Below are positions 32,322 to 55,681 of a DNA stretch of 64,000 bases, piece after piece (positions within the stretch are counted from its first letter, which is position 1; every line of letters starts with the position of its first letter). Source of the DNA: Parietichytrium sp. I65-24A (taxonomy: Eukaryota; Sar; Bigyra; Thraustochytrida; Thraustochytriidae). The notes under the pieces are model-generated. The model ran no database searches. It had not been told where the DNA came from and saw only the letters and a list, made by a program, of their open reading frames with translations. The stretch spans positions 1-64,000 of the forward strand of contig BLSF01000016.1 in NCBI GenBank assembly GCA_012862575.1, read 5' to 3'. The position numbers and the translations under genes are program-made.

Positions 32322-33401
32322 GTAGAGCTCTTTTCACTGTCACTTCGCGTTATGCTTTTGAATCACTTCACTCCAAAAACAAACAAACAAACGTGCACGT
32401 CTTTGTGCTACGCAGGCGGCAACAGCAGATTGGAGAATTGGAGCGGCGGCACGAGAACTAGTATTTGCTTGGCGCCACCGACCGCGACCTCGCCACGTGT
32501 GGCCTCGTTTGCTGAATCTTACAATCTGACAATCTGACAATCTGACAATCTGACAATCTGACAATCTGACATGAGTAACAACCTGCCATGCACACAACTA
32601 CTACAAACTATTCCGCCAACGTGACACCATTCTTACTCTCCATGATCTATCTCCAGGACCAAAACCACCCTCCCACCGCGAACTTATCAGCTCGCGCGCC
32701 AGCCTATCGTCTCCTTCTTCCACGTATCCCAAGCCGCCCATCGCCACCAGCTCCTCCCAGCGTACCGAGCGCCGGACTTTCGGTTCGTGTATTGCTCTTG
32801 TTTGTTTTCTTGTTTCCGATGCCATGTACAAGAACCAACGTTGAGATATGATGAGATTAACAAACCAATTTGCTGTCGCGAAGGGCCCAATGTGATGCCC
32901 TGCCGCTTGCTGCGAGTCGCATAATCTTGGATAGCGTCAGCTCATTGTAACGTTTGCGCCTTTAGTTACATCTCTCGCAACTCCCTTCGTAGCCGTTAGC
33001 GCCAACAGAGGCCCGGGACAGCTCCGGAAAGTGGCATTGTGCCGCGCAGGAAGGGCGAGGTGAACGTGGTTCCATATCCCATCTCCAACAGAATATATAT
33101 ATATATATATACATGTGACATATCTATATTTATATATGTGTTATATATATGTATATATATGTACATTGTGTGTAATGCGCAGTGCGGAGTCAAGAATAGT
33201 TCGGACAAGACGTTTTGTTTGTTTATCGAAATATACTGGTTGCTGCGCACTCACAGTCACGAGGAACGGGACGAGGAAACATACGTGACTTATATATAAA
33301 TATACATATACTTGGTATATGTGCGCGTGCGTTTATGAGAGATACTCCTCTCGGGGACGAGGTGCCAGGTGTCACTCGGCCGCGCAAAACCGGCGAAGAG
33401 A
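32322..33401. other. Divergent spacer with minisatellite and AT tract
   Basis: No gene supported. It contains a 10-bp tandem array (CAATCTGACA, about five units, 32522-32570), an alternating AT/TA-rich stretch at 33090-33165 and a TCACAGTCA motif near 33252. Confidence 0.6.
32522..32570. repeat. (CAATCTGACA)n minisatellite
   Basis: About five exact 10-bp units with no unique spacers, 200 bp upstream of the membrane protein start on the opposite strand. Confidence 0.9.
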
Positions 33402-36400
33402 ATGGACCCTCGCAATGGCCAAGGCCGAAAGAGAGCACGACGAAGCGTCGAAAGTGCCTCGCGGTCGGCAGCGCATGAGGCAGCTTCAATGGAAAACGGC
33501 GAGCAAGACGCGGCTTGGGATGGCGAAGCGAATGAATTGAATGAATTGAAGAGTGAGCTCGACGCTGATGAGAAAACGCTGAGCAGGGATAGGAGCAGGA
33601 ACAGGAACAGGAGCAGGTCTCGGGGAGGCAAGGACGTGGCGTCGAATGGGGTGAAGCAGCGCAAGGGCAAAGATGGCGAGGATGTTGAGCAGAAGAAACG
33701 AGGGGTGAACGGCAAGAAGCAAGTCGTGATTCACAGTCAGTCCACTGGTGATCTCGGGCGGGAGGCGAAAGGCGACTTGCTGCAATCGCGGCTGCAGCGA
33801 GCGTACTTGCCTAAACATTCCGGGTCTGGGCTGAACAGCAACGTGGAGAAGCGGGTCAGAAGGGCAAGTCGAGGTCAGCGGCGGGAGCCCGCCACTTCGA
33901 GCGAAGAACACCCAAGAAGAGATGGGACCAAGAACAAAACTGAGCAAAGCGCTGATGCGCTGCCGACGATTTTCATTCCGCTCAAGTCGTTCGACACTAG
34001 AGAAGAGGAAAGCGAAGGTCGGGAGGATCAGAGCGACCCGATGGCTGTGAAGAAGAGGGTTGCAAAGGGCAAAGACTTTTTGTCGCCAACGAGCAACGCC
34101 GTTGCAAAATTGCAGAGCGGCGGCGATTTCTCCTCGTGGCTTGAAAATATCGTAGCGGACGGAAAGCGCGAGGCACCAAAGTCGAACAACGAAAAGAATG
34201 CTGGGGAAACAGCAAAACCAAAACCAATCTCAAAGAAAGTGACGCTTGCACCGCTCGCTTCAGCTGCTTCGATGGAGAAGCGCACGTCACAGATGCAAAA
34301 GGATCTCGAGGATGTTGCAGCTAGGGAGCGCAAGCTGTTTGCGAAATTGGAAGAAGACGGAAAGCAGGCCATAGCAGAGCTTCCTGTGGAGTTCCTGCAA
34401 AAGATGAAGCTGCAAAACTTTGTTTATGCAAAAGGGGCGCACACAATTCAAAAGATTTTCACTCGGGTCACAATGGCGCAGTTTTCCAAAGTTTTTGTTC
34501 AATGGACAGCCTTCACGCAATGGCACAGAGAAGAATCCCACAAAGAGGACCTTTTGCGGTACGCGCAGGGAAACGGACTCCGGGTTATAACAAAAGTTCG
34601 TCTTCGGGTCACGAGAGGAGCACTGACGAAAGCTTTTTCTAGATGGACGGAAGTGTCTCTCTCTCATCCAAACCGCTTGGAACAACTTGCAGCCGCCCTT
34701 CAAATTCAGCGAGCAGCCAGAGGCGCACTCGCTCGGAAGTTGTGCAGAGCAAAACGCCGCGAGCACCTGCTTGCTCTGCAAGATAGTGCTGCCTCAGTGA
34801 TCCAGAGGTTTATCCGCAGCATGCTTGCTCGGAGGCTTTCAGCGAGACTTGCACGAAAACGGCTTGAGAACAAGAGCGCGCTCATAATTCAGCTCTTCTT
34901 CAGAACTATCGTTGCAAAGGCAGTAATGAGAGCAAGGATTGTACTCATGGTTGAAGAAAGACGGCGCGAAGCTGCTGCTACAAGGATACAATGCTGGTCT
35001 CGATGTCAAGTTGCACGCGGGATTGCAGTTCTTTTGAGGGGTGAGCGAAGGAGACACTTGGCAGCTATTACATTGCAATGCATGGTAAGATCTCGGAAAG
35101 CAAGAGGTGTCGCATTTACACTGCGGAAACAAGTAATGGAGGCTGCGTTCGAAGCATTAGAGGAAGCTGTGCAAATTGCGGAACGCCAAGTCGCTGCGAT
35201 AAAAATCCAGCAAGCGTATGGCAAGTATCGTGAAAGCGCAATTCATCAGGCTGCCGCGCTCGCCGCGGTTGAGATGGTTCTTGCAGCCGAAGATCATATC
35301 GCGGCCTTGCAGATTCAAAACTACTTTCGAGAAGTTCAGGTGCATCGGATGGTGAAGAGAATAACCAGGGAAGTTGACTATCTCGTTTTGAGATCGACGA
35401 TTGTTCTCCAAACCGCCACGCGAGGGATGCTGGCCAGGAAACAACTCCTGCAACTTAAATTAGAAGATCGCGCGAGACGGATCGCTGCAGTAAAGGTTCA
35501 GGCTGCCCGAAGAGGTCAAAAAGGTCGTGCATCCGCTGCCGAAAAGAAAAGAGAGATTCAAACACTTGTGAGCCGCGTGGAAGAAGCACGCTGGCTCCAG
35601 CTGAAACGGCGGCTTGGTCGACGCGTGGTTCGTCGCTACACTGTCCAGAGGAGTCAACGCCTGCAAGTTTCCTTTGATGGTTGGAAGCAGGTCACAATGC
35701 AAAGGTTGGAAGAGCGCGCAAAGCAAAGACTTCAGATCGCTGTCAATCATTTCCTCATGAATCTTCAAGCCCGAAGCTTGCGTGCCTGGGACGCTTTTGT
35801 CACGATGCGGAAAGAAAACCGGGCAAAAGTCCAAAAGGCAATCAACCACTTGCGCGGGTCAACCAGCCTAAAGTACTTCAATGCTTGGTTGAACCAAGTC
35901 CACCTCACACACCAGCACAAGCAAAAGCTTGTTAAGATTTTTCTCGCATGCGTTCCAATAGAAACGCATAACTCCGGTCGCCAACGTGCTCTGCGCGAGC
36001 TTTCCCTAGGTTTGGAATATGCCCAAATTCAGCGCACAGGGTGGAAAGGCCTCGTTGAATTCCTCGCCGAGCGCCGAAGGCTGTGGGAGGTTGCATGCGA
36101 GTGGCGAAGCCAAAGATTCGCCTCTCGGGCCCCGAGACTGGCGTTGTTGGACTGGACGCGGTACACTGCTGAACGGAAGGAAAAGGCCGCAAATTTGAGA
36201 CAGGCTGAATTACATCTGAAAGAATTCGGCAAACAGCTGGGATTGCGGAAGTTGCAAATTCTAGTTGAAGAGACGAGATGCGCACAGCTTGCTTGTAACA
36301 TGAGCGACATTCAGTTCTCGTGCTTTAGAAAACTGCGCGCAATGAGAGCCATGATGTCCAACGTTATCGAAGTCCGCTACGACCAACTTCAGAAGGAGAA

Positions 36401-39400
36401 GGCACAGACATTTCTACACCATTCAATTCAGAAAAGCCACTTTCACAAGCTGGCAGCTTACCTAGTATACCGGAGGCAAAAGGCGGCCAAAAAGGGCACA
36501 GCAGATGGGCACTTTTGTAAGGTGCTTGTCAGAAATGCGTTCCAACAATGGTACGTCGTATCTCACGAAGAGTTGCTTCGAAGGCGCAACGCAGCTGCTG
36601 TTCGAATACAAACTCGAGCGAGAATCAGGCTTGCAAAGCTGGAACGCTTCAAGCGCAAAGCTCATCGCCAGTACGTCGTTGAGAAGGATCTCGCAAAGGC
36701 CTTCGCCGTCGAAAAGGAGTTATTCTTGAGGCGTCGAACGCTGAAAGGACTGGGCAATAGCTCGGAGCTTGAGGATCTGGTCACAAGATCGAGCAAAGAT
36801 GATGATGCAATTGCTGCTGTTCTATATTATGCTCCCTGGACAAGTAAGCGGACGACTTTTAACATAGAGAGCGCTCTGGCGTTATCGTTGGAGATGGTCG
36901 AAGGGAACCGGGTTGAGTTTGCGAAAGCTTGTGTGCAGGATATTGGCGTTGACGCTTGTGTAAAGCGGGGCGTTCGAACATTCCCGTGGGTTGCATTCTA
37001 CTGGAGGGGACGTTCGATTAATTGCACAGTGCCAGAAAATAAGTATTGGAAAATGGTTCTCGAACCGCTGCACAAAGTATCTGCAGAAATCCCGGTAATG
37101 AAGTTCACATTCGATGATGCAAACCTCTACAAGGGAACTGGCTCGGAAGATGAGGAGTCTAGAGCCCAGCATTTGGCAGGCAAGTTGAAGGAGTCTCTCG
37201 TTCTTGCACGTACGAGTCTCGATGCGGCTGCCATGCTTTTGCAAAAGGTGTATCGCACACGGAAGTCGAATGGAGTCCTGAGAAAGTGGCAATCCCTCGT
37301 GCCTGATGTATGCAGGTTTTTCGCAAGACTTAAAGCAGAGGAGGATTGGGAAAATCGTACGTTCACCGAATTTGATTGCGATCCACACCCTCGGAAAATC
37401 GCAGACGCTCCAATTGATCCAAAGCGGAAGCGCTTCCTCTTTAATCACAAAGCGTTGGAGGCGACATGGGACGATCCTGTCCCGCCTCCAGAGAGATTCC
37501 TCGACATCGTGGCTGTTTTTGCCAGTGGCCATCGAATGCGTATCAAAGAAATGAAGAGAGGGTCAACTCTGGAGGACCTTTTGAAGTACATTGGCGATGC
37601 GAGAGGCTGTGCACCTCAGACTGTCAAAATTGCACTTCGCTCTGCCGGGATTTGGTTTGACCAAAACGTGATGGCACCAGCTTACAACACTGACTCGAGC
37701 GCCAAGATAGGGGCTGGTTGCGTTGTACAATACAAGCCTGAAGACCACTGGCAAGACTTTCGTGTAACAAAAGTCTATGAAGACGAAAGCGTCGATCTTG
37801 TGTCTCTTCAAAGCGTAACAGAGCAAAGTTCGCAAAATGTCCCTGAGGCACAAAATGAGGCTACGTCGGCTAATGTCGAAGCAGAGTCTTTGCCTGAACC
37901 TGAGAAAGCCGACGAAAAAAGCCCTCCCTCTAAACGATCTGGTGAGATTGGAAATGTTAGTGTGAGCCAAGCTGAGGAAAGTGATAAAACTTTCACGGGT
38001 GGTGAAGCAGACAAGGAAAACATTTCAGTGGGAAACAATCAAGACGAGGCATCTATGGTTTCGTCCAGAAAAACAGAAGCTGAAATGGCAACTTATCAAA
38101 ACGTAGCTCGCGGGGAGATCAAATTGCGGAAATTCAAAGACGGTGAAAATTCGCAAACGCTGAGTGACTTGGGCTTCACGAAGCTTTCCGTGGTGGAGGT
38201 GGACGAAGTGAAAGAAGACGACAAGTCTGGGCCAACCTATGATCTACTTAACGAGTATGGTGTCTTGTGCTCGGCGTGCAAGACATCAACGGGTGACATT
38301 CTCTGTCAAGATTGCAAAAGAATTTTTTGCGAGAGCTGCTGCACAAAACTGCACCTCGCCGAGGACAACGGCATGTCGCTTCTTGTTCCGGTCCCAAATC
38401 GAGAAAGGATTTCTGAGCTCGGGGAGTACGACGCATACCTTTATCGGAGAATTCTGGCTCGGCATTGGTTTGTGCCAGTGCAAAGAGAGTATCTTGCCAC
38501 GGCAATGCGGTTTGCTGCAGAAAAGGAAAAGATAAAGGCAGAGCAACAACGGGAAGGCTCATCTTCGCAACGAAGCAGTGCATCTGGATCATCTGATTTA
38601 CCTCCTCTCGTTTGTTCACTTTGCAATGTGCAAAGCATCACGAAGCGCTGCGAAGCGTGCAAAAGCGACATGTGCAATGCTTGCGCGCACCACATGCACC
38701 GGAAAGGTAACCGGCACGCGCACCGAGTAGTAGACTTGGAGGAAGGTCAACCGCGCAAGGGCGATGAACTCGAGTTGCCAGCAGTCCGAGCGAGAGGATG
38801 GAGGAACCAATTTTTAAAGAATCTCGAGACAGAAGAAGAGGAGGAGCGAAAGAGAATTATGCAGGCAGATCGCGCAGCTGCGGAGGAAATTTTAGGGGAA
38901 GCCTTTAAAAAGTACGACGCCGACAACAGCGGTTCTTTGGATGCAGGGGAGCTGTATTCGTTCTTGCGATACGAGATCTGCGAACCAATCACCGAAGAAG
39001 AGGTTCAGGAGGCAATCAAAGAAATGGACAAGGACGGAAATGGACTCATTGAGTACAACGAGTTATTGGACTGGTTCGCAAACCTTGGGAAGCAAGAAGG
39101 GAGGGATACCGCTCAGCTCCGTATGCTCCGCATTAACTTGCAAGCAAAGAAGCGAGTGAGGCTGCTTAAGAACCAATTCAACGCCGTGCTGCCGAAACAA
39201 AAGCTTGAAAACACGAAGAAATTCCTCGAAGAGCAAGCACAGAAGTGGAGAGAGAAGCGGCCGCCTGTACCGGGCTACCCGCGCGTATCTCAGTTGCGGT
39301 CATCAGATTTTGAGCCTTACCTGTATCTCTTCGAGAGATTTGTCAGGAGGGAGTATCGTATTGCTTGGAGGGTGAGTGCTTCGGGGTCCCCGTACGAGCA

Positions 39401-40259
39401 ATATTTGCTAGCCAAAGGCCAAAAGCTCTCCCTTCGGCGAATGTCGAAAGGGACCGGATTCGATTTTCAGCAAGACTCGGAACTGCCACTAGCATACCGT
39501 GAGAGAGTGAAAACTGCATTTGAAGGAATTTTTCTGCCCGCTTTCAATGCGGGCAAGCTGAGCAAAGCATACTATGACGATGGTATCGAGATCCAAGATG
39601 GATCTGACACCTACAGGCAGATTTGGGATGATAACAAAGGGGAGTTCTTTTATCATAACCTGGACACCGGTGAAGATGTCGAAATTAACCCTCTTCATCG
39701 CAAGGCCCACGAAGACGAGATTAATATTGCTTTCAACAAGTACGACGACGATCAATCCGGGCACCTAGACCTGAAGGAGGTTAGAAAATTTCTGGAGGAT
39801 GAGCTTTGCGTAAAGCTCACCAAGCAGAAGCTGGCCAAGGCAATGGAGGAGCTCGATGTAGACAAGGACCAGCGCGTGAGTCGCGAGGAATTCCTTCGCT
39901 GGTTTTGCCGTGGTCTCGATGTTGGCGATCATGACATCTCTTACGAGCTCCGTGCCAAACGAAAGATGCGCGCCATGCGAGCTTTAGGAACTGCGGCAGC
40001 GCAAATTATGACCGAAAACACCGCACATGTCGGGCACAGTATCAGGGACATGACGCTAGCTGGAGGCAAGAGCTTCAGGAACAACCTCGAGAGTCTGGGA
40101 AAGGGTCCCTTGTACAAACAGCTTTTGGAAGAGGGTTGGAACGGAGCAGATATTCAGAAAGCTATCGATCGCTGCAAGAAGGTGAAAGGCGAGGAGCATG
40201 ACAATGCAGTCCGCGAGTTCTTGGAAAAGTCTTGCACAAAAAAGGGTGAGCGGTCGTGA
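33402..40259 (+). CDS. Giant IQ / WW / B-box / EF-hand protein
   Basis: 2285 residues in one exon; ATG at 33402 (the longer frame starts at GTG). Disordered basic N-terminus (1 to about 340). IQ motifs cluster at about 430-710, for example ALQIQRAARGALARKL and TRIQCWSRCQVARG, with another near 1065; these bind calmodulin or light chains. Helical Trp-bearing repeats (SFDGWKQV, SLRAWDAF, SLKYFNAW) around 760-850 resemble Sfi1/centrin-binding repeats. A WW-like segment lies at about 1335-1360. Two B-box-like zinc modules begin near 1622 and 1737. Four EF-hand loops start at residues 1839, 1876, 2115 and 2152 (DADNSGSLDAGE, DKDGNGLIEYNE, DDDQSGHLDLKE, and the weaker DVDKDQRVSREE). A WW-like stretch lies near 2080. 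A calcium-regulated scaffold of basal body or axoneme is inferred. Confidence 0.85.
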   Translation: MDPRNGQGRKRARRSVESASRSAAHEAASMENGEQDAAWDGEANELNELKSELDADEKTLSRDRSRNRNRSRSRGGKDVASNGVKQRKGKDGEDVEQKKRGVNGKKQVVIHSQSTGDLGREAKGDLLQSRLQRAYLPKHSGSGLNSNVEKRVRRASRGQRREPATSSEEHPRRDGTKNKTEQSADALPTIFIPLKSFDTREEESEGREDQSDPMAVKKRVAKGKDFLSPTSNAVAKLQSGGDFSSWLENIVADGKREAPKSNNEKNAGETAKPKPISKKVTLAPLASAASMEKRTSQMQKDLEDVAARERKLFAKLEEDGKQAIAELPVEFLQKMKLQNFVYAKGAHTIQKIFTRVTMAQFSKVFVQWTAFTQWHREESHKEDLLRYAQGNGLRVITKVRLRVTRGALTKAFSRWTEVSLSHPNRLEQLAAALQIQRAARGALARKLCRAKRREHLLALQDSAASVIQRFIRSMLARRLSARLARKRLENKSALIIQLFFRTIVAKAVMRARIVLMVEERRREAAATRIQCWSRCQVARGIAVLLRGERRRHLAAITLQCMVRSRKARGVAFTLRKQVMEAAFEALEEAVQIAERQVAAIKIQQAYGKYRESAIHQAAALAAVEMVLAAEDHIAALQIQNYFREVQVHRMVKRITREVDYLVLRSTIVLQTATRGMLARKQLLQLKLEDRARRIAAVKVQAARRGQKGRASAAEKKREIQTLVSRVEEARWLQLKRRLGRRVVRRYTVQRSQRLQVSFDGWKQVTMQRLEERAKQRLQIAVNHFLMNLQARSLRAWDAFVTMRKENRAKVQKAINHLRGSTSLKYFNAWLNQVHLTHQHKQKLVKIFLACVPIETHNSGRQRALRELSLGLEYAQIQRTGWKGLVEFLAERRRLWEVACEWRSQRFASRAPRLALLDWTRYTAERKEKAANLRQAELHLKEFGKQLGLRKLQILVEETRCAQLACNMSDIQFSCFRKLRAMRAMMSNVIEVRYDQLQKEKAQTFLHHSIQKSHFHKLAAYLVYRRQKAAKKGTADGHFCKVLVRNAFQQWYVVSHEELLRRRNAAAVRIQTRARIRLAKLERFKRKAHRQYVVEKDLAKAFAVEKELFLRRRTLKGLGNSSELEDLVTRSSKDDDAIAAVLYYAPWTSKRTTFNIESALALSLEMVEGNRVEFAKACVQDIGVDACVKRGVRTFPWVAFYWRGRSINCTVPENKYWKMVLEPLHKVSAEIPVMKFTFDDANLYKGTGSEDEESRAQHLAGKLKESLVLARTSLDAAAMLLQKVYRTRKSNGVLRKWQSLVPDVCRFFARLKAEEDWENRTFTEFDCDPHPRKIADAPIDPKRKRFLFNHKALEATWDDPVPPPERFLDIVAVFASGHRMRIKEMKRGSTLEDLLKYIGDARGCAPQTVKIALRSAGIWFDQNVMAPAYNTDSSAKIGAGCVVQYKPEDHWQDFRVTKVYEDESVDLVSLQSVTEQSSQNVPEAQNEATSANVEAESLPEPEKADEKSPPSKRSGEIGNVSVSQAEESDKTFTGGEADKENISVGNNQDEASMVSSRKTEAEMATYQNVARGEIKLRKFKDGENSQTLSDLGFTKLSVVEVDEVKEDDKSGPTYDLLNEYGVLCSACKTSTGDILCQDCKRIFCESCCTKLHLAEDNGMSLLVPVPNRERISELGEYDAYLYRRILARHWFVPVQREYLATAMRFAAEKEKIKAEQQREGSSSQRSSASGSSDLPPLVCSLCNVQSITKRCEACKSDMCNACAHHMHRKGNRHAHRVVDLEEGQPRKGDELELPAVRARGWRNQFLKNLETEEEEERKRIMQADRAAAEEILGEAFKKYDADNSGSLDAGELYSFLRYEICEPITEEEVQEAIKEMDKDGNGLIEYNELLDWFANLGKQEGRDTAQLRMLRINLQAKKRVRLLKNQFNAVLPKQKLENTKKFLEEQAQKWREKRPPVPGYPRVSQLRSSDFEPYLYLFERFVRREYRIAWRVSASGSPYEQYLLAKGQKLSLRRMSKGTGFDFQQDSELPLAYRERVKTAFEGIFLPAFNAGKLSKAYYDDGIEIQDGSDTYRQIWDDNKGEFFYHNLDTGEDVEINPLHRKAHEDEINIAFNKYDDDQSGHLDLKEVRKFLEDELCVKLTKQKLAKAMEELDVDKDQRVSREEFLRWFCRGLDVGDHDISYELRAKRKMRAMRALGTAAAQIMTENTAHVGHSIRDMTLAGGKSFRNNLESLGKGPLYKQLLEEGWNGADIQKAIDRCKKVKGEEHDNAVREFLEKSCTKKGERS

Positions 40260-40731
40260 GGGAACTACTTGTAATCTTCTTTTTTTTTGCAGACAAAGAG
40301 CATCACTGTGCTTTTAAGTCTTGATTGAATATAATTTGAACAATACCTTGATTGATCAATTTTGAAACAAAATATAATACATGTGAAACTTTTTTCCCCA
40401 GAGGGTCAATGTCAAGTACGCAAGACGCGACCTCAATCCAACGCCCAGAAAAATAAAGATAAAGTAAATTGATCAGATTGAAGTAAATTGCAAGCACACG
40501 ATCGAAGAAGTCTACAAGGAAACAGAGAAACAAAACAAAGAAATGCGTGATGCTGGAAGAGAATTTGTGCCGATTGCCGCTCGACTTGGCCAACCCGCAC
40601 CGGCATGTGTGCGGGTGTGTAAGCGCAGCATCGCCAGCTGCATTGAAGGGGGGAAATTTGAGGTATATAAAATACATGAGGTCACTCCAGCAAAACTTTG
40701 GCAAAAGCCCTCCCATCAGTGGAAATTCAGG
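40260..40731. other. Convergent 3' spacer
   Basis: 472 bp between two stops; AT-rich with a poly-T run right after the + strand stop and AATAAAG at about 40450. Nothing else seen. Confidence 0.5.
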
Positions 40732-41436
40732 CTACCCATGCTCAGGCATGGTTCCGTACATTTTCTGTCTGTAAACCTTGCTCACGGCAGCCAGGTCGCC
40801 TTCAGCCTCGAGGTCCATGCCCATCAAACTCTCATTTTGCTTCGTGCTCTTCATCTTTCGAATGATCAAAGAAATCGCAGCGATGGCTAGGCCGGACCAA
40901 AGAACAAAACTAAACCATTGTGAAGCTCGTCCTTGCCTGGAGCCATCCACGCCCTCATCGCCACCGAATATTTTAGCGATTTCCCCAAAGAGATCGTTGC
41001 TGTCAGCAGTAGTGGCTTGCGAATTGACCATGGAATTTTCAACAAATTCCACGTCCGGAGAGTCTTCGGCGACAGTTGCGAGGTGACTGCCAAAAGCCTG
41101 CTTTCCCCAAACATGAACATAATCATAATCCCCGCCCTTTCCAGCAGTGTCACCTTTGGCAACGCCGTTTTCGTACTTGTTACCGCACCTGTACTCACTC
41201 TTGTTCTTGGGGTTCTCCTCGCAGGTCATTCCGATGCAGCATGGCAGTCCACCGTCCGGATCGCACAATGGGAAAGTGCCACCGCTGGTAGGTCTGATGC
41301 ATTCTGGAGTGTACATAGGATTGCCCATTTTGTCGTCCTTCTTCCGCTGGCGCGTTTTTTTGGCCTGAGTGAGCTGTGGCTGCGTGATGGCCAAAAGTAT
41401 CGTTGCCACAAACAAGCACACCAGCGTTGGATTCAT
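40732..41436 (-). CDS. Cys-rich type I membrane protein, unrecognised
   Basis: 234 residues from the ATG at 41436; the frame extends upstream only from a TTG. Signal peptide MNPTLVCLFVATILLAITQPQ, then a lumenal/extracellular part with a compact Cys cluster (about 45-85: TPECIRP, FPLCDPDGGLPCCIGMTCEE, YRCG) resembling small disulfide-knotted modules. An acidic linker follows, then a membrane span (WFSFVLWSGLAIAAISLII, about 175-195) and a short basic-then-acidic tail. No family was recognised. The layout suggests a surface or Golgi receptor-like protein. It is divergent from the TFIIB-like gene. Confidence 0.65.
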   Translation of the reverse strand: MNPTLVCLFVATILLAITQPQLTQAKKTRQRKKDDKMGNPMYTPECIRPTSGGTFPLCDPDGGLPCCIGMTCEENPKNKSEYRCGNKYENGVAKGDTAGKGGDYDYVHVWGKQAFGSHLATVAEDSPDVEFVENSMVNSQATTADSNDLFGEIAKIFGGDEGVDGSRQGRASQWFSFVLWSGLAIAAISLIIRKMKSTKQNESLMGMDLEAEGDLAAVSKVYRQKMYGTMPEHG

Positions 41437-42526
41437 TTCTAACTTCCGGCCCCGCCCACAGACTTTCGCCCCAATGACCTCGGCACCCAAGTTCAACTTT
41501 GGGCAATTGTCTACAAAGCACAACTTCAAAATCGATCGCGCCAATGCAGGCCCTCAGACTGCGCGTATCCTCGGCCAGACTGAAATTCTCACCGACCTTC
41601 GTAAAGGCGTGCACAGCGAAAGATATCACAAGAAGACCAGCAGCGACTTGGCTCTCGTGGGAACTCGTGTACCCTCACGGCCGCAGGCACGCATGTATAT
41701 TTCTCTCAACCGATATTGCGTTGATCTTTCCAAGTCGCGCACTTGTGCTCTGGCCTTGCCTCTCCCTTTGCTCCGTACACAGTTGACGCACCTTCCACAC
41801 CTTCCACCGTCCCTGCGTGCGTCTCCTTTCAAGTCTCATACTATCTCATACTCACCATTCTAATTAATGTCTATCATGTTGTGATTGTTGTGATGGCCTT
41901 TTACGATCTTTCTCATTTTTCATGATGAAATCAACCAATTCACAGTCAATTCAATTGAGACAGTGAATGAAAACAAGAAAAGCTTTCTGCCACTTCCGAA
42001 TCCAGTTTGCTGAACAACAAGATTGGAATATTAATCCAGATCCATTCTAAACCCCGTATTCTCCATGAACGCATCTCTCGAGCTTTCCGAAAGATCAAAT
42101 GGCATAACATTTAACATAACAAAAAACAACACCATCGCAACCATCGCTAGCTGTGACTCGAGCTCCGTCCCCCACGGAACCACTTTCCTCTCCATCAACC
42201 CCGCGTGCTCCATCTCGGCGCTCCCGAGCGGTCACAGTTGTCGCAGTTGTCGCAGTTTCGCAGTTGTCGCAATTGTCGCAGTTGTCGCAGTTGCAATTGT
42301 GTGCATAGCGAGACGTTTGGACGGCGCCAAGTATTACCGAGCTGTGCGCGCGGGCTGGTGCATGCCGGTCGAGTTTACTTGTTCGTTCGTTTGTTTGTTT
42401 GTTTGTGTATTTGTTTGTTTGTTAGTTTTCGTGCTTGCCCGTGTTGAAAGTGTTGAAAGGAAGCTCGTGCAGGCAGACGGGTAGAGAATCAGGGCGCAAG
42501 TTGCGGGCAGGAGAGCGGCTTCGAAA
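41437..42526. other. Divergent spacer with motif palindrome and nonamer array
   Basis: No gene supported. An imperfect inverted repeat at 41938-41969 has arms TTCACAGTC and GACAGTGAA. A GTTGTCGCA-type tandem array lies at 42231-42300 and a (GTTT)n run at 42380-42424, about 100 bp before the TFIIB-like start. Confidence 0.65.
42231..42300. repeat. (GTTGTCGCA)n nonamer array
   Basis: About seven imperfect 9-bp units in the promoter region of the TFIIB-like gene. Confidence 0.85.
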
Positions 42527-43615
42527 ATGAATGCGGCGCTGGTGGAGAACATCTTGAAGCGGCTGTGCCCGGATAAGAGTCTGCAGTTGGTGGAGTCGCA
42601 GTTCCCGAGCCTGATTGAGGTCCGTCAAGAGCGACTCGCAAAGCAACAAAAGAGTCAAAAGGCGAAGCTCGCATCTACCAGCTACAAGTGCAAGTATTGT
42701 AAAAATTCGGACCAAGGGCAGTTCACGGAAGACGCGAAGAGGGCGAGTGTCACTTGCTTGCGATGTGGAAGTGTCGTGGAGGACCGTAAAGTTCACGATG
42801 GAGAGTGGAAGCGTCAGTTTGCGGACGAAGACAATCCTAGTCAACACGGTCCAGCGCCAGACCCGAGGTTTTCGAGCGGACACAATCTGCGAACAAACAT
42901 TGTGCTCGCTAGCGGGAAAGGCAGTGGTGGCAAGGTGACTAAGAAAGACTTGATGGATCTGAAAAACGCGCAGGAGAAAGTTGAAATGAATTTGAGCAAT
43001 ATGAACGGAGTAGATCTGAGAACAACTCGTATTGGATACAAAGATAAACAGAAAAAAGAGGTGAGTTGCTGGAGGGAATTTCTTTGGTTGTTGACCCTTC
43101 TCAAAAATTGTGAATGGAGTTCTCAATCCGTTCTATTGTCGCTCACATTCGTTCATGCTCTATAGGTTTTCCAAATGCTGGACGATGTCGGCGAGAGTCT
43201 TCAGCTGCACCAGAAAATAATAGAGACTGCGAAGGGGTATTTCGCAGACTACCGTTCCGCAAAGGAGCAGATCCAGATGCGAGACGTGGTTACCGCTGCG
43301 TGTTTGCTGCTAGCATTGCGCGATGCCACTAGTGCGGGAGAGGATCTCCTAGCTAGCTCGGCCACCGATGGAAGTGACCGCGACGCGAGTAGGAAGCGCA
43401 AACTGGACTCATCCGGCGTTGAGAGTGCGGAGCAGACTGGCCGCCGTATTGCTCCGAAGAACTTGCCCAACAATACTGCGCAGTCGACACGTTTTTTGTG
43501 CAAATTTTGCAAAAGAGACTTTAGCAGCAAGAAGGATGTACGGCTACATACCTTGACGTGTAAGAGCAAGCAAAGCGGTGCCAATGGGTCTGCGCCAGCG
43601 GCTGCTTCCAAGTAA
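42527..43615 (+). CDS. TFIIB-type zinc-ribbon protein with single cyclin-like region and C-terminal C2HC finger
   Basis: 327 residues. Exon 1 42527-43060, intron 43061-43165 (105 bp, GTGAGT...ATAG, phase 0), exon 2 43166-43615. Zinc ribbon: Cys55-x2-Cys58 and Cys77-x2-Cys80, with CLRCGSVVEDRKVHDGEWKR and DEDNPSQHG, closely matching the TFIIB ribbon and B-reader region. Exon 2 starts with one helical region (about 180-235: ESLQLHQKIIETAKGYF, then MRDVVTAACLLLALRDA) like a TFIIB cyclin repeat; a second repeat is missing. The C-terminus has a finger Cys290-x2-Cys293-x12-His306-x3-Cys310. TFIIB recruits RNA polymerase II; with half of the core missing this is more likely a divergent regulator than the general factor. 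The architecture is not one I know. Confidence 0.8.
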
Positions 43616-43767
43616 GATAATTTTTATTGAAGGGAAAAAAGAGAAATTTAGAAACTCAGTGAATGTAGAACATGAAGGTACAACATCTAGCCAGACCTTC
43701 CTTATCCCAAGCATAGTTTTAGAACCATTCCTTTTTTGTTTCGTGATATAGCCTTCCACGATGCAAT

Positions 43768-44925
43768 CTAGAGTGTCCGTTTAAATCCAAAATGACAAAG
43801 CATCGGTTCATCGCTCGTCGCAAAGCCCGTTCTCCTATAATGAATAGCGAGTGAACAGGCATCCAAGAGAAAAGGTATAAACGTTTCATTTGACAAGGAC
43901 CTTGCGTGCTGAACCGACCTCTCGCACTCTGCAGGGTATGGGCCAGCTTCTTTGTTCCACATGAAGAACTTTATCTTTTCTCTCAAATCGGTGTCTATTT
44001 CTTCTGCATGAAAATACAGATACGCTGCACATCCCAGTCGATCGATGTCCTTCTCGAACTCAAGCTTAGGGCGTAAGCCCTGCTTATTAGCGAAGAAGCT
44101 CTCCTCGATGCCACTCGGCACGCTATTGAATTGGCCCTCATTTGGAGAATTTGTGTTGCCTATCGGATCAGAGTCCTGGTCTGCACTGATAAAGCTTTTC
44201 CCGTCTTCGGATTTTCGGGTATTCCAACCACATTTCCCATTCAGATCTCCCACGACACTTGAAGACGCCTTCTCCTCGATCGGAACTTCAGCTTTGGCTA
44301 CCTTCGGTGCGGAGCTAACCCAATCTTTTTCTAAGTCTGGCGAAGAGTCTTCTGCTCCGCCACGTTGGGTCTTTTGCCGTTTCGGGTCGGGAGTGAAGTC
44401 GGTATCTGACTTTTTCATCATAGTTTTGTTCTTCTCAATATTAACGGTGCGAAAAGTGGCATCCGCAGAAGATTCAAATCCTTCTCCTGACGCGGAGCGT
44501 GTCGGGGTGTGTAGTTCTTGCCTCAATACTTCCTGTTCCTTCAGTAATCGGGCCCGTGTTAATTCGGCCGTCTTGATCTCAAGAGTTTTGCCAATATAGG
44601 GCACTATTTTTAAAATTCTAGAGCTCACCATCTCGACGTGTTCCTGTGTAAAGTTTCTCAGAGCCTTTAGCTGTTTGTTGGCATCACCGACCTCAGAGAT
44701 ACCGGACTGAAATAGTTCTTCTACCCTCTGAAAGCTCTCCTCCAATTCGGCAGCCTTTTGATGAAACGCCTTTCTTTCCGCCTGGATCTCCGCAAACCAG
44801 TCATCATCGGGGCGATAATTCTTCGCTATATCTTTTGTTCTCTTGTTCATTGAAACTTGCTCCTTCACTTTGTCGAACAGCTCTTTCAGGGCCATGCCCA
44901 GCGTGGATTCTTCATTCGAGGCCAT
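43768..44925 (-). CDS. Coiled-coil protein of unknown function
   Basis: 385 residues from the ATG at 44925. The first about 150 residues are strongly helical and charged (AERKAFHQKAAELEESFQRV, then LEIKTAELTRARLLKEQEVL), a likely coiled coil. The middle is Ser/Lys-rich and disordered, with possible nuclear-localisation lysines (KRQKT). The last about 90 residues form a compact-looking domain (DRLGCAAYLYFHAEEID, then FIPFLLDACSLAIHYRRTG). No family recognised. Only 152 bp separate its stop from that of the TFIIB-like gene. Confidence 0.7.
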   Translation of the reverse strand: MASNEESTLGMALKELFDKVKEQVSMNKRTKDIAKNYRPDDDWFAEIQAERKAFHQKAAELEESFQRVEELFQSGISEVGDANKQLKALRNFTQEHVEMVSSRILKIVPYIGKTLEIKTAELTRARLLKEQEVLRQELHTPTRSASGEGFESSADATFRTVNIEKNKTMMKKSDTDFTPDPKRQKTQRGGAEDSSPDLEKDWVSSAPKVAKAEVPIEEKASSSVVGDLNGKCGWNTRKSEDGKSFISADQDSDPIGNTNSPNEGQFNSVPSGIEESFFANKQGLRPKLEFEKDIDRLGCAAYLYFHAEEIDTDLREKIKFFMWNKEAGPYPAECERSVQHARSLSNETFIPFLLDACSLAIHYRRTGFATSDEPMLCHFGFKRTL

Positions 44926-45836
44926 CTTCTTTCCCTCTAAACCGAATCGGCCGCCAATTTCGGCGGGTTCAAAAACTCTGCCTTGCCGCGAGAAAGGCCT
45001 TCTTGACACTGAGAGAAGGGGGGGAAAAAGAAGCTAGTAACCTTCTTCAGCGCAGCCCCCTCCTTCTCAAGTCTGGAGGAAGGAAGCCTTGGCTCTCGCG
45101 TTCAACGTCCTCTCGACGCTCTCAGCCCTCGCCTACTACCCTCCTCGCCACCTCCTCCTCGCGAGTTGTACATACTCTGCCAAGCGACCAGCTTTGGTGC
45201 TGGAAGACTGTATCCATCTGTATCCCGCGCTATTTATGATTACTATTTATACACGTTTGTTGTTTTGTACTCGAAGATATAAAGGAAGAAAAAAAGAATA
45301 AAAAAATGTTGAACTGCAAGCAGACTGCAAGCGGGAATATGTTATTGATAATCAACTGTACAGGATTTGGTAGCTTTCGTTCGCGTAAAAATTGTAAAAA
45401 TCAAACGAGCACCCAGAGCACCCCAAAAGATTTCCCGTCATCGTGGTGTGTGACATTTAGCCTTTGCTCGTATTTTTAAGTTGAATCCAAGAGAAGCGAG
45501 AGGAAGAGAACGGACGATATACTTCAATATATATTGTAGGATGGAGGGTCGAAGAGCGCAGAGCTGACCATATAGGCACGAAAGAAAAGAGGAACTGGAA
45601 TGTCGATCCCAATTAAACTGTAAAGAAAATAGAAAAAAAAAAGTAGCAAGGGCGATGTTTCTTTCACCTCTAGAAATAACTGGGGCCGACTCAGTACACC
45701 AAGGACCAAGAGATACCGAACTGCCCGTTTGATAGGGCATTGACAGCGAGAAGTGGGTTTTGCACCCGACACAAAAGAATATGAGCGTGGTGTTGAATCT
45801 TGTCTACCCGGAACCTTTCAGTAGGCTGCATGAACG
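44926..45836. other. Spacer between two - strand genes
   Basis: No gene supported. It is AT-rich with A/T homopolymers (for example near 45290 and 45630). It should hold the promoter of the coiled-coil gene and the 3' end of the 510-residue gene. Confidence 0.5.
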
Positions 45837-47369
45837 TCAAATGGAGCCATCAACACTGCTTTGACAAAGGCTCAGATATTTTTGGAATGTAACCTCAGCA
45901 GCCGTTTCATCAATATCCCTCTCTTTGCGTTGGACGAACATTGATAATCGAAACTCGAAAAGTGCATACTCCAGAATTTGGCCGACGTGGCGGATCTGCT
46001 TTTGAATTGGATTCTTCATGGCCGGCTCCTGGATAATTACATCACGTCCGTTTTTCCCCGTTTTCGTCTTGCCGACCTTGACTTTGGTGAATACCGTTTG
46101 TGTGAAGTCGTCCGGTTTGCCTTCCGATATTCGTGTGGAAAAATCGTCGCACGAAATAGAGATTCCCAGCACAGATCTCATGCAGAGCAGAACGTCGATC
46201 AGGTCGTACAATTCCATTTGCTGGAGAAAAGATCCGTCGAAATGGGATTCGTTTTCGAGCCAGACCTTGAGAATGCGTTTCAAAGACATACTCACCTCGC
46301 TCGATACATTTGCATGATGCATTTTGAAGCAAAAATCATGCAAGAGGAGCATCAAGATGGCGTTCCGTGGAGTCCTAGCTTTCACGCACTTCTTCAGCTT
46401 CGGCAAGCAAGATCTTATTTCCTCATCCTCAGAAAGTTGCACAAAGAAGAGGAGGTTGTTGATGGCAAAGAAGTCCTGAGCAAATCGCAAAGGCAAAACT
46501 CGGCGAGCCAGATAGTCGAATACCTCAGGCGTGAAATCATGTTCCGCGGCCTTGTAACTTATGTTCGGCGCGATTTTATTCAGGCTGCTTAAAGCTGCAC
46601 GTGACGCACATCGAGAAGCGACCTGCACAAACTTTGACGTGCCAAGAAATTTTGAGTTTATTTTTTTCTTCCTCCCCTCGAGTTCACCGAAACTTCTGTT
46701 CATAAAAGTAGCAAAAAGTTGGAACAGAAGACTGGGCTTGCCTGCTTTGGTCGTGAAACCGTCGCATATCTCCGTCATTCGCTTGTTGAAGCTCGACGCA
46801 TCATTTCCGTGCGCGTCCATGTCTAAAACATATTTGGCAGGCACTTTAGAGTCATACCAAAGAAGAGCAATCATAAAAAACATGGAAACATCAAAAGGGA
46901 GCTCGATCGGTGCCCAAGGAGACCGGGACAATCGGTGGGAATTGTTATCCTGCATAGATAGCAGCCTCCGGAAACACTTCAGCAGTCCCATGGACCCATT
47001 ATCGTTCTTCGCTACCGTGTATTCGTCCAAGAGCTTGTGCCCGTTATAGTTGAACACTTTCAGCCACTCAAGGTTCTTCTCATCCTTGGGCACCACCTGG
47101 TTGGACGTCATCATTTCCAAGTAGCTCTTGTAATACATGCGAATCAGAGAGTCGAAACCTTTGTTGTTGAACCTTTCTCCGACAACCCGTCTAAGCCACT
47201 GAAGCATTGTAGGCTCTTCGCTGCACACCTCGTGCGAAGGCGACTCCGTTTTCACCTCACGTAAACGCTTGCGATTCCCAGACATGGACGTAGCACTATT
47301 CTCACCGGCAGAGAGCTTCCTCTCCAACAGATTGCCAGCTGCCTCAGAGCCCTCTGCTTCGTCGCCCAT
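45837..47369 (-). CDS. Unrecognised 510-residue protein
   Basis: Single exon, ATG at 47369. The N-terminal 50 residues are acidic and disordered with a basic patch (GNRKRLREVK). The remainder is mostly helical and hydrophobic in an all-alpha pattern, without membrane spans: LKCFRRLLSMQD, FDVSMFFMIALLWYD, FARRVLP-like segments and LYDLIDVLLCMRSVLG. The tail TFQKYLSLCQSSVDGSI ends the protein. It could be a helical-repeat scaffold, but I cannot name a family. The 20-bp palindrome at 47543-47562 is about 175 bp upstream. Confidence 0.7.
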   Translation of the reverse strand: MGDEAEGSEAAGNLLERKLSAGENSATSMSGNRKRLREVKTESPSHEVCSEEPTMLQWLRRVVGERFNNKGFDSLIRMYYKSYLEMMTSNQVVPKDEKNLEWLKVFNYNGHKLLDEYTVAKNDNGSMGLLKCFRRLLSMQDNNSHRLSRSPWAPIELPFDVSMFFMIALLWYDSKVPAKYVLDMDAHGNDASSFNKRMTEICDGFTTKAGKPSLLFQLFATFMNRSFGELEGRKKKINSKFLGTSKFVQVASRCASRAALSSLNKIAPNISYKAAEHDFTPEVFDYLARRVLPLRFAQDFFAINNLLFFVQLSEDEEIRSCLPKLKKCVKARTPRNAILMLLLHDFCFKMHHANVSSEVSMSLKRILKVWLENESHFDGSFLQQMELYDLIDVLLCMRSVLGISISCDDFSTRISEGKPDDFTQTVFTKVKVGKTKTGKNGRDVIIQEPAMKNPIQKQIRHVGQILEYALFEFRLSMFVQRKERDIDETAAEVTFQKYLSLCQSSVDGSI

Positions 47370-48767
47370 CGTTCCCGCGCAAGCTTGAAGCTGCCAATCC
47401 CCAACACCGTGACCTCGTCTCCTTTAATTGCCACCTCTGCCTCGCACCACTTGGCCACGTCTCGGCATGTCTCGGCCTCGCAGTATCTCGCAGTGATATG
47501 AATTATGATAATACGTGGGTGATAATGTCAAGAACCGGTACTCACTGTCAGTACTGACAGTGAATATGCTTTTTTATAGCTTCCGTATCCCCTCGGTACT
47601 CTTGGATGAATAAGCAGGTAAATAAAAATAAATGCGTCGGCCCGGAGAACTCCGTCTATTTTTTATCGTCGAGAACAATAAACATAAATACCGGTACTTA
47701 TGAAAAGCCTGAGGATTTGTTGATCAATGATTGATCAAGAGAGAAATAGATAAATAAAAAATGATTTGGATTTTTTTTTGAATTTTGATTTTTGGAGTCG
47801 AGGGTGTTGGTGTCAGATTATCGATTCCCCTATTCAACCATCAATCAATCAATCAATCAATCAGCGAAATTCTTACTAATTTACTCCAATTGAGCGCTCT
47901 CTATTAGCTATCGTAGTGAATTGGTTAGCCGAATTGATACTAATTACTAATTACTCTTATGTGGCATCTTCCTAGTGGAAACTATAGTGAAAAAGAGCGT
48001 AAATTGTAAGCACTCTTAACAATATCTCCTAGTTGCTCTTGTTAGGTGATTGAAATGCCATGTGGCGCTACTCAAGAGCCTATACACCGAGTAAGCCTAA
48101 GATGAATTGGAAACTTTTTTGGAAACTTTGAACTCTGGAAATGCAACGAACGCAACCCTCAAAATCAAAACTCTCGACCATGAAGAAGACCAAGGCCGCT
48201 TGTGTCTTTCGTGCCTTTGGCTATTTGATGCTATTTGGCACTTGGGCTTGCGTTGATTGCGTTCATACATTGCGCTCACACATTGTGTTCATTGTGTTCA
48301 CTGACATTGAAAGAGAGAGAGACAAAGTATAAAACTTACGAGACGGGAAAAAAGGGAGCGTGGCAAAAACCCAGTTTACGTTTTTCGCCTATTGATCTTA
48401 TTCTTGCGAACTCCTCCCTCCCTTTTCAATATATATATATACTATGTCGATACAACTGCTAACTAATTATTACTGTGCACAGAATAGCAATTACTATCGT
48501 GTGCTTTAGCTCTGCCGCGGACACTTTGAAAGCGTTGAACGCGTACGCGCAGTACGGTCAAGACTAGCGCCTTTCTACTGGTACGAAGCTGTAGCATTCC
48601 GGCTGATCAAGAGTGCTCGAGTACTTCCAAACCTGTGGGAGCAGCACATACGCCTGAACAGTTTCAAGAGGACACCGTACCTGCGATAACTTGGTTGCGT
48701 TTTTTTGGTATTGGGAATATCAAAATCTGAGCTGAGGCGCGGGCTGTTATAGCGCAGCGGCGGCGAA
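47370..48767. other. Divergent spacer with perfect palindrome
   Basis: No gene supported. It holds a 20-bp perfect palindrome at 47543-47562, (CAAT)n at 47841-47862 and an alternating AT tract near 48430. Confidence 0.65.
47543..47562. promoter_or_regulatory. Perfect 20-bp palindrome CACTGTCAGTACTGACAGTG
   Basis: The two halves are exact reverse complements and extend the dispersed TTCACWGTCA motif. It sits in a divergent promoter region, 174 bp upstream of the 510-residue gene's ATG, and would suit a dimeric DNA-binding protein. Function is inferred only. Confidence 0.4.
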
Positions 48768-50521: not shown

Positions 50522-53500
50522 TCAAAAAGCCCGGCTTTGTTCTTTAAGATGAAGGCTTGTCACTTCACGTGCTGTCTGGTACACGACCTCGAACGGAACG
50601 TCCACGCGCTTTCCCCAGAGATGATGCCTTTTCCAGTCCACTAGAGGGAATGCTGGACTTGAAAGCCCGTGTTGGATGCGAGCAATAGCGAGTGGAGTAA
50701 GTGGAAGGCCAGTTCGGCCCTTCCCCTCGTACAGTAGACCTTTCGCTTCCGAGAGCAAAACCTTTCGCAAGGCTTGATCTTCACCATTGACTGGATAAGG
50801 AATGGGCAATTCGCACACCTCATTTCCAGAAAAGTAATCAGAGATATACTGTTCCGGCGACCTGTTCTCTGCCTTCCAGTCCTTCATGGCCAGCTTGATA
50901 TCCTGTGGCAGTTTGTTCTGGTCACAAACAGCACACAAGTAAGTGAACATGGAGCCTATGCGCTTTCTGTGAAGATCGTCAATGGATTGCATCTTTTCAA
51001 TTAGTTCTTCTGCAATCGATCTTGGATCTGCCAAGATAGAGTTCTGCAGCGCGCCCGTATGTGAGTCATTCAACCGCACAAACATGCACGGATCCGTAAA
51101 AGTAAGAGACAACTCCTTTTGTTCTTTCAGTGTGCTCAGCGAGCGAATCAATAGAGACACCGAGATCCCCAGCTTCTCACTGATTTCAACAAGGTCGGCC
51201 GTGTACTCCCCGGCACTACTTGTCCCGTTCTTATCGCTTGCTCGAGCAATCGCCAAAAAGTGCAAATCGTGCCGCAACACCGTGCTGTTTGGTCGAAGGG
51301 GCTTCACCTTTACCGTTGCAAACCCGCCAGGAAGCAATCGAATCACCGAAAACGGTTGCAACGAAAGATATACGAGCAACGTTTCTAACACGCCCGGTTT
51401 CAAATCCAGCTCCACTGAAAGTTTGTTGGGCACCACAGACACCTGCCTTTGATGCATTCCGGCCTTTAGAAATCGGAGCAATCCCAGAACGCCAAATTTG
51501 TCAATGTGGTCTCCATATGACAAGGATTTCAACTTTCTCGCATCCGAAGCGTCGAAAAAGGTGTAACAGAGCGCTTCCATTCCGTCTCGTCCTGCACGGC
51601 CAATACCTTGAATATAGTCCTCGATGGAGCGAGGCACTCCCAGATGCACCACTCCGCGAATGTTGGACTTGTCTACACCCATTCCGAAAGCAATTGTGGC
51701 CACTACAATTCGGACGCTTCCTTTCATAAAGGCGCACTGGACTGAATCGCGGTCGGCTCCAGTCATGCCTCCATGGTAGAACTTTGCTGGGAGCTGTTGT
51801 TCGCAAAGTCTTTCCGCCACCGTTTCTGCCTCAAATTTGGTTCGAACGTACACCACGACAGGAGAAGGCTTAGCAAGTGGCCCCTCATCAGCGAGCAACT
51901 CAGCAAGCGCTTTGAATCGTTTGGCGTCGTCCACAAAAACTGCGTGCTCCAGGAGGTTGTCGCGCTCCCATGAACCCACTTTGGTGCCTGATGCAGTGTC
52001 GATGCCTAGGACGTTTGCAACATCATTTACAACACGATGTGTTGCTGTTGCCGTGAGAGCTAGCACGCATCGCGGGCGAAGTTGCGCGAGATCGTGCTCG
52101 CCTTCGTTTGTTGGTGGACCAGCGCCCGATCCTCCTCGAGAGGCGAGGAGTAATTCTCGGAGACGCAGATATGATGGCCTAAAGTTGTGCGACCAAGAGG
52201 AAATGCAGTGAGCCTCATCCACACAAACAAGAGAAATAGGGGGCAACAAGCCGGGAGTGCGGAGCAACCTTTGGAAGCTAGAAGAGAATAGCCGCTCAGG
52301 AGACAGGAACAAAACTTTGATTCTCCCACTCTGTAGAGCTTTGATTGTTCGCGCTATCTCCACCCCAGACTGTCTTCCATTCAAGCACGCCCCAGGAATG
52401 CACAAGGGAAGCGATTTGAGCTGGTCTTCCATCAGGCTGATTAGAGGTGATATGACAATTGTGAGACCGGGCAAAAGTAAAGCAGGAAGCTGGTAGCACA
52501 AGGATTTCCCACTGCCTGTCGCCTGGACCAATAACGTGGATGCGCCATTTAGAACTCGCTGAATCGCCCACTCTTGATCGGCGCGAAAGGATTCAAATCC
52601 AAACACTTTGTGCAACACATCCTCAATCTTGGCGTCGTGCTCGGGACTATCTGGGGAACTGCCAAGGTTCATCTCTTTGATGAGTTCGACGTCTGCCAAG
52701 TTTGCCTCCATCAGCCGCTCAATCAATTCGCTCTTTTTCCCACCAACGGCAAGCGACTTTCGTTGTAAGAGCTCTTTAAGTTGCGCCAAGCTATAGGACT
52801 CCAAGGTTTTGCGAAACTCCTCCGCTCTATGACTTGCGTAATTCTCTTGAGACGTTTCTGACGACCGAATCGTCTCCACAATCTTCTCCGTGCTATCGTC
52901 TGCCCACATAAAGTATTTGCAGCCGCGATCCCCTCCACCAAAGCTATTCCTTCCCTTTCCAGGATTCCATGACGACTGCGCCATACTACAGATGAAAAAC
53001 TGCCTGCCAAAATTTCGGTTCCGCTTCTTCACGGTAAGCAGCGCACATGGAGCATTGTGCCCAGGGCACAATGGTCTTTCCGCCATTTCCCGCATTTCTT
53101 TCGCATGTTGTGCGCTCAACGTTGTGAGGACCTCTTGCAGCTTGCTGTGAGCAGGGTCGTCAGCACTGTGCTTTAATTTGTCCAGCACAACATCCATGCA
53201 ATCCACTTCCTGTGAGCGAGGGGGGGCGTCTTCATTGCGCCCCACTGTAGGCTCGCTTGACTCTTCCTTGGAAATGTACATCTCGCGGCGTTCTCGACGC
53301 ATCTGGGCCGCTGCCGTCCCGCCCTTCTTTCGCATCTGCCAAGAATTCTTCTTCAAGTTGATCTTGACAAAATTTTGCGAGAGCTCTTTCCGAATGACAT
53401 GTTGCTTCTTTGTCGAGCTCTCTTTAGTGGCGGTATTTGAGCTTGATGCACCGGAGGCGATCCTATTTTCCGTGTTCTCGAGCTTTTCCGACACAACTGC

Positions 53501-54748: not shown

Positions 54749-55681
54749 CTCCTTCCCTTTCCCGCTCTTTATACGGGGACCGAAAAGGTGTCCTCGCTGG
54801 CGTATGCGTCGGCGGTTTTGCGGGTACACTATTGTACAGTCGGTGAACTTTGAAAATTTGGTGTTTTGAATTTTGCTTTTTGAATTTGACTCTTGAGGGT
54901 CAAGAGAGAACAGTGAACTGCTCGGTGAATTGATCCGTTCGCGGTTTTTACAGCCTGAGCTGAGCCTGAGTTTTACAACTTGATCTTCAAACGTGACGGT
55001 GACTGTCGAGTTGAAATTTTTTAAGATTTTGAACTGATTTTCGAGTTCAGGTTGTCAGGGTTAGTGTCAGTGCGAAGTGGAATTTGTATTTTGCTGTGAA
55101 TTTGACAGGTTTTGGGATTCAAACCAACTTGAAAAATTGGATATTTTATAATTTTCAATGAATATTGATTGAACGTAACGTAAAATAGAATTTGGGATTC
55201 TTTGGTCTGAGAGATGAACATGGGGATCATCGTGGATGGCTTGCGACCGACTCGTGGGCGCTCGAAAGCTTTGAGAGACATAGAATCTGTAGGTCGCTGC
55301 GTGGCTCAGTACTCTGCTCTAAAGGCCGACCCTGAATGAACAAGTGTTCCGATGATCGTGTGATTGTCATGTTGGGCAGCTCGCACTTGCATGGTAGTTC
55401 TGTTATGGCTCGGAGAAGCTTTTGGCGACAGTGGCTAGTTCAAGTCGAAACGAATCGCATAGGGAATACGAGTTAAACTCACTAAGCCCATCGCAGATAG
55501 TACGCACATTTCTTCCAGCTTGAGCTCGGATGGAGCTCTGGGTTTGGCCCGAAGACTTGCAACAAGAGATTCGGCGACAACCGCGACGGTGACTTGGGCC
55601 CGACAAGCCTAGCTTTAAGCAAAGTGACTGCGCTGGAGCGGGCGGATCTCGAGAGGCGTCTCGGTTGCAAGAGCATCCAAA
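54749..55681. other. Divergent spacer
   Basis: No gene supported. AT-rich to about 55200, then more GC-rich towards the 191-residue gene. No notable repeats. Confidence 0.5.

Follow-up and report, generated by a model that had tools for sequence, protein, structure and literature searches.

Can RNA polymerase II be served by a relative of TFIIB that has kept the part facing the polymerase and lost most of the part facing the promoter? The two-repeat core of TFIIB, which clamps TBP on DNA and sets direction, is for that reason regarded as shared by nearly all archaea and eukaryotes, humans included, and so a gene with a genuine TFIIB beginning and very little of that core deserves a close look. 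Such a gene lies at 42527-43615 of the window, by which we mean the whole 64,000-nucleotide stretch of Parietichytrium sp. I65-24A DNA that was analysed. A preliminary description had placed a two-exon gene here, and both our reading of the open frames and the codon scores agree, giving two exons in one frame on the plus strand and a product of 327 amino acids, made up as follows:

42527..43060, plus strand: exon 1, residues 1-178, open from its ATG up to a GT donor at 43061, with an in-frame coding score of 0.165.
42527..42682, plus strand: N-terminal extension, residues 1-52; no Pfam family is confined to these residues at E <= 1.
42683..42802, plus strand: TFIIB-type zinc ribbon (PF08271), residues 53-92, with C55, C58, C77 and C80.
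42803..42907, plus strand: stretch resembling the B-reader and B-linker, residues 93-127 (EWKRQFADEDNPSQHG...NLRTNIV), from phmmer and hhalign.
43061..43165, plus strand: predicted GT-AG intron of 105 nt, GTGAGT...TAG, coding score -0.37.
43166..43615, plus strand: exon 2, residues 179-327 and the stop; its frame has a coding score of 0.115, above those of the other five.
43166..43324, plus strand: residues 179-231, proposed from profile matches and shuffles as helices 1-3 of cyclin repeat 1.
43325..43492, plus strand: linker, residues 232-287, in the place of helices 4-5 and repeat 2, pLDDT about 46-58.
43493..43570, plus strand: C2HC zinc finger, residues 288-313, C-x2-C-x12-H-x3-C (C290, C293, H306, C310).

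Is this a real gene? As far as its sequence goes, it is. The codon score was trained on ten long open reading frames of the window, which themselves range from 0.086 to 0.294, and a level of 0.131 is attained by 5% of random 450-nt frames drawn from the window, genes among them. The parts of exon 2 differ, with 0.186 for the core piece, 0.136 for the linker and a neutral 0.002 for the finger with its tail. The intron has a length divisible by three and carries an in-frame TAG at its 3' end, so that if it were retained the frame would stop after 212 amino acids. With the splice predicted from sequence alone and the finger and tail neutral in composition, the gene might therefore be mis-modelled, either as this 212-residue ribbon protein or as a gene whose further exons hold the rest of the core, which we consider improbable for several reasons. 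The core piece and linker have coding composition, no piece resembling cyclin repeat 2 was found in any frame of 40000-48000 (the top score in a profile search being 3.2 bits), an opposite-strand open reading frame of 413 amino acids ends at 43768, just 153 nt downstream, and a second gene elsewhere in the genome, L006, carries a ribbon and a like finger in a single open frame with no intron.

What does the first half of the protein look like? Here the preliminary description, which had seen a TFIIB ribbon followed by a B-reader-like region, was right on both counts. The N-terminal C2C2 zinc ribbon scores 31.7 bits with PF08271, above the cut-off of 29, and is the top match of that family in the assembly (35.7 bits, E 3.2e-7), the runner-up being a frame on contig C61 at 35.4 bits. 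Residues 93-127 are aligned by both phmmer and hhalign with EWRTFSND..SRVG..LSTMI of human TFIIB, and in the phmmer alignment the reader motif EW..F is as in TFIIB; our own profile also points to a reader and linker region, at the level of sequence. The phmmer match, to residues 15-168 of human TFIIB, has an E of 1.5e-4 for the whole sequence and 0.0035 for the stretch, and hhalign against a TFIIB profile takes in residues 51-231 (probability 93.8, E 1.7e-7). In human TFIIB, 14 residues stand ahead of the first ribbon cysteine in the alignment, whereas the window gene has its 52-residue extension.

How much of the cyclin fold remains is a harder question, and the answer is a part of one repeat at most. 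The NCBIfam TFIIB model PRK00423 matches residues 45-231 over positions 6-180 of its 312 (E 5.2e-8), with a score of 32.3 bits that is far below the curated membership cut-off of 384, and our own full-length TFIIB profile, built from seven sequences, matches residues 56-230 over 10-175 of its 319 (E 1.4e-8, set for 1000 sequences). In both of these, as in hhalign, the alignment runs out where helix 3 of repeat 1 finishes (CLYIACRQ in the human protein), and none of the three finds helices 4-5. PF00382 has no match in the window gene at E <= 1. The match to the cyclin repeat starts just before exon 1 ends. Against a repeat-1 profile the core piece scores 9.6 bits, a value that a single shuffle in 2000 attains and none of the 393 tiles cut from other open reading frames of the window; an earlier, four-sequence version of the profile gives 10.4 bits, again with 1/2000 shuffles and 0/393 tiles. 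The same piece scores lower with repeat 2, at 3.2 bits, which 49 of the 2000 shuffles and six of the 393 tiles attain. Exon 2 alone scores 6.1 bits with repeat 1 and ranks first among 223 open pieces of 40000-48000, a chance piece reaching 5.6. These comparisons suggest that the gene carries helices 1-3 of cyclin repeat 1, on evidence weaker than that for the ribbon and reader, yet beyond chance.

A full cyclin repeat is not what the sequence shows, the match ending after helix 3 of five. The preliminary description had spoken of only one cyclin-like repeat; it was correct that the core is reduced and, by profile, that no second repeat is hidden here or elsewhere in 40000-48000, and too generous about the repeat itself, of which at most three of the five helices are left with the fold unconfirmed. 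The structure prediction that it had proposed does not bring out a cyclin bundle: AlphaFold, given exon 2 as a single sequence, returns two long helices of moderate confidence without a three-helix bundle, a model that is compatible with a partial cyclin fold but does not demonstrate one. TFIIB has two five-helix cyclin repeats, and its upstream BRE contact is made by a helix-turn-helix in repeat 2, which the profile comparisons do not find here along with the rest of that repeat. Because it does not have the two full repeats, the gene should not be classed as TFIIB.

In place of the missing core there is a 56-residue linker and then the C-terminal C2HC finger that had been proposed from the letters, and which is supported by its spacing and by an AlphaFold pLDDT of 92-93 (blocks 111-130 of exon 2). 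The spacing fits the C-x2-C-x12-H-x3-H/C pattern of C2H2 and C2HC fingers, the Pfam zf-C2H2 models match it below their cut-offs, and in a Foldseek search with the exon-2 model the top rows are C2H2 fingers at E 0.43 or worse, among the best 50 of 110 listed; none of the 110 matches at E <= 10 reaches E <= 0.001. The C1_4 family of TFIIH p44 was tried as a home for the finger and set aside as weak and below cut-off.

Does the organism have a canonical TFIIB somewhere else? The search, suggested in the preliminary description, came out against one. The assembly searched amounts to 42.5 Mb, and the searches see single exons. Human TFIIB finds only BRF1 and the window gene at E <= 10, and PF00382 finds only the two BRF1 repeats, whether the threshold is E <= 0.001 or E <= 10. 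PF08271 has 11 matches in the assembly at E <= 1, eight of them with assigned loci, the window gene included, and the frames on C61, C25, C148 and C1, BRF1 on C4, and L009 and L010 contain no canonical TFIIB; the frame reading left out three weak places, on C59, C63 and C60 (E 0.12 to 0.51). BRF1 (L001, on C4) is identified as such because of its PF07741 block, which scores 42.8 bits beside 162.6 bits for both repeats. As a control, a family search found TBP, in three exons. The host TBP keeps EPELFPGLIYRM, which we take to be the TBP stirrup bound by TFIIB and BRF1, and BRF1 alone would also explain why it is kept. The TFIIA-gamma N-terminal domain was not found in the assembly (best E 0.8), though TBP and BRF1 are, and for this reason the absence of TFIIB may in part be artefactual, reflecting exon splitting, divergence or missing sequence. 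The missing TFIIA-gamma is also an observation in its own right, pointing to a set of general factors that is possibly unusual or split by introns. Searches for relatives returned none, whether the window gene, L006 or the pair was compared with viral contigs, or the pair with genome contigs (a search without the eukaryote collection).

Among the PF08271 places, near-identical ribbons of the form C-x-HC...CSSCG were seen in L007 (C148) and L010 (C14), one closing a 419-aa frame and the other lying within an 80-aa frame, and seem to form a repeated and possibly mobile family.

The runner-up ribbon needs a word, since it offers a quite different explanation, namely that the Pol II B-factor is L004 on C61, perhaps captured from a large DNA virus, which would leave the window gene as a relic or a regulator. 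L004 is a TFIIB-like open reading frame with a PF08271 ribbon above cut-off (32.3 bits) and with length enough for two divergent repeats. Against this, it has no PF00382 match and no clear repeat match with the TFIIB profile, and it sits on a 278-kb contig where the three stretches read have a GC content of 0.40-0.42, compared with 0.50 in the window, and densely packed open reading frames, and which has TBP-like frames of its own. C61 would be explained most simply as a viral contig, from a large DNA virus or a virus-derived insert with its own factors; L004 is unlikely as a host factor, and we would give the idea that it is the Pol II B-factor very little credence. The TBP-like frames are L018, L020 and L023 on C61 and L019 and L021 on C156, one of them having identical scores on the two contigs, and six of the ten frames scanned on C61 (of 21 listed) are without a Pfam match at E <= 0.01.

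A second gene of similar layout was noticed on contig C25, at 286428-287525 of the minus strand: L006, intronless and 366 amino acids long, has in order a ribbon, a possible core piece, a finger and a long tail. Its ribbon reaches 22.1 bits with PF08271, below the cut-off of 29, and is all that NCBIfam recognises in it. By BLASTP it resembles the window gene in finger and ribbon only, with 14 of 26 finger positions identical, although its finger ends in H-x-C, which makes the zinc site less certain. Cut out, the core piece scores 10.9 bits with repeat 1 (reached by none of 2000 shuffles) and 8.8 bits with a second profile (2/2000), whereas within the whole frame it scores 3.9 bits, which is chance level; hhalign against the TFIIB profile (probability 91.5) ends in helix 2, and the full-length TFIIB profile puts the piece in a different register. 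Nothing significant was found among PDB sequences, the two genes do not retrieve each other in a genome-wide protein search, and an AlphaFold model of residues 1-219 has a mean pLDDT of 39.8 and no usable fold. Finger, ribbon and order are what mostly suggest that L006 and the window gene are likely kin.

How does all this compare with what is already known? In TFIIB, the ribbon sits on the dock of the polymerase and the linker extends far into the enzyme, and it is the cyclin repeats that hold TBP and DNA, the second of them contacting the BRE (PMC7865254, PMC7289017). The window gene is like TFIIB and archaeal TFB in its ribbon and its reader and linker, with weaker evidence for helices 1-3 of repeat 1, and unlike them in that helices 4-5 and repeat 2 were not found and that a C2HC finger and a 52-residue extension are added. 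BRF1 of the same genome shares the ribbon family and differs in having both repeats and PF07741. Another parallel is AtBRP3 of Arabidopsis, described as having a ribbon, a linker and a single cyclin fold, and as one of 15 family members beside a true TFIIB, in passages that mention no finger (PMC7865254); in the window gene the fold is incomplete, a finger is present and no TFIIB was found beside it. Likewise, Sulfolobus TFB3 is described as a truncated B-factor without B-finger and helix-turn-helix that competes with TFB1 (PMC2246294) and seems to be an activator in trans (PMC7289017). It resembles the window gene in its truncation, its kept polymerase-binding ribbon and its absent helix-turn-helix, and differs in lacking the B-finger (reader) and in coexisting with TFB1 and TFB2, and the passages on it mention no added finger (PMC2246294, PMC7289017). 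Among protists, Paramecium is reported to have no TFIIB by similarity search, and EMIT3 and TFIIBL1 of Tetrahymena are TFIIB-like proteins of a protist group that includes Paramecium (PMC12716044, the latter as cited there); TFIIB orthologues have been reported from oomycetes (PMC3520976).

In the open-access literature on unusual or protist TFIIB, the titles listed include no finger-for-core layout without a canonical TFIIB. Going by PRK00423 and our own profile, the window gene has the core reduction of a single-cyclin B-factor, in a 42.5-Mb assembly where canonical TFIIB was not found. Since truncated and single-cyclin B-factors are already known beside intact TFIIBs, the preliminary proposal of a new class of initiation regulator survives only where it concerns the finger and the setting, which do look new.

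These precedents also provide the most serious rival, in which the window gene encodes an accessory regulator comparable to Sulfolobus TFB3 or Arabidopsis BRP3. It would dock on the polymerase by its ribbon, and activate or repress beside a canonical TFIIB that the assembly lacks or that escaped detection. Truncation has its examples in both of those proteins (PMC2246294, PMC7289017, PMC7865254), and truncation together with a second, more divergent gene such as L006 would suit regulators; on the other hand, PF08271 (with three weak places unread), human TFIIB and PF00382 brought up no canonical TFIIB, and the reader that is lost in TFB3 is kept here. We judge this rival to be unlikely, though it has to be taken seriously, and were it nevertheless correct, the gene would be a eukaryotic counterpart of archaeal TFB3.

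Could the gene instead serve another polymerase? It might be a Pol I factor, or one that works at some of the Pol III promoters (like Rrn7/TAF1B or Brf2), with or without L006. Sequences of Rrn7/TAF1B diverge strongly, and apart from the C61 frame only BRF1, the window gene and L006 are in sight here. Most eukaryotes are described as having three B-factors for three polymerases (PMC7865254). The window gene is nevertheless closest to TFIIB, with neither an Rrn7 nor a BRF family among its Pfam matches at E <= 1, with no match at that threshold to the PF07741 block that follows the repeats in BRF1, and with an EW..F motif that is TFIIB-like, so that a role with Pol I or Pol III seems to us distinctly unlikely.

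This leaves the reading that we favour, tentatively and at a little short of an even chance, in which the window gene codes for a polymerase-docking factor derived from TFIIB, its core truncated, that serves as the Pol II B-factor. The ribbon, the reader and the absence searches are its main supports. The failure to find a canonical TFIIB is what shifts the picture from an extra regulator toward what is possibly the B-factor itself: if there is no other TFIIB, then this protein would be the Pol II B-factor, and if another exists, then it would be a regulator like TFB3. The absence searches favour the former and the missing core favours the latter, and the main counter to the B-factor reading is that the core by which TFIIB acts, in binding TBP and DNA, is mostly missing.

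With the polymerase-facing part kept and the promoter-facing part mostly gone, we infer that the ribbon and reader would bind RNA polymerase II in the manner of TFIIB, and that the promoter tether would come from the finger or from partners. Little is left of the regions with which TFIIB holds TBP and the DNA on either side of it, so the C2HC finger may take over this tether, through contact with DNA or with another protein, for instance a TFIID subunit; the protein would then act as the Pol II B-factor of this organism, and L006 would be its sister, perhaps working with a different polymerase or set of promoters. A bolder version, which we think doubtful, is that two-repeat TFIIB has been lost in this lineage, that a minimal B-factor of ribbon, reader and three helices, its TBP- and DNA-binding core replaced by the finger, does the Pol II job, and that L006, similar in plan, works for a second polymerase or class of promoters. 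In that case, Pol II initiation would not need the TFIIB core. A lone TFIIB-like candidate for Pol II without most of its core would make the question of which parts of TFIIB are needed a testable one, and likewise whether a zinc finger can replace the promoter tether.

We do of course have some smaller observations to add from the same genome. The TPI-GAPDH fusion is a mark of stramenopiles and was not seen in the two loci read, L035 being a TPI without GAPDH and L036 a frame of 256 amino acids, about the length of TPI alone. Rfam had no match in the first 10 kb of each of the 14 last-numbered contigs (10-18 kb). The PfaA PUFA-synthase model found nothing above cut-off in the assembly, with 13 partial matches. 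Four matches to this model, presumably to its ketoacyl-synthase part, fall in a 5583-aa open frame on contig C66 (L025-L027), probably a multi-module polyketide synthase. Within the window itself, a 2296-aa open reading frame on the plus strand at 33369-40259 has two EF-hand pairs, a B-box-like zinc domain just below cut-off and, by eye, IQ-like repeats, and a RecQ-like helicase frame of 1435 amino acids on the minus strand at 50522-54829 combines Drc1-Sld2, GRF zinc finger and SAP domains in one frame, a combination that we take as a likeness to RecQ4.
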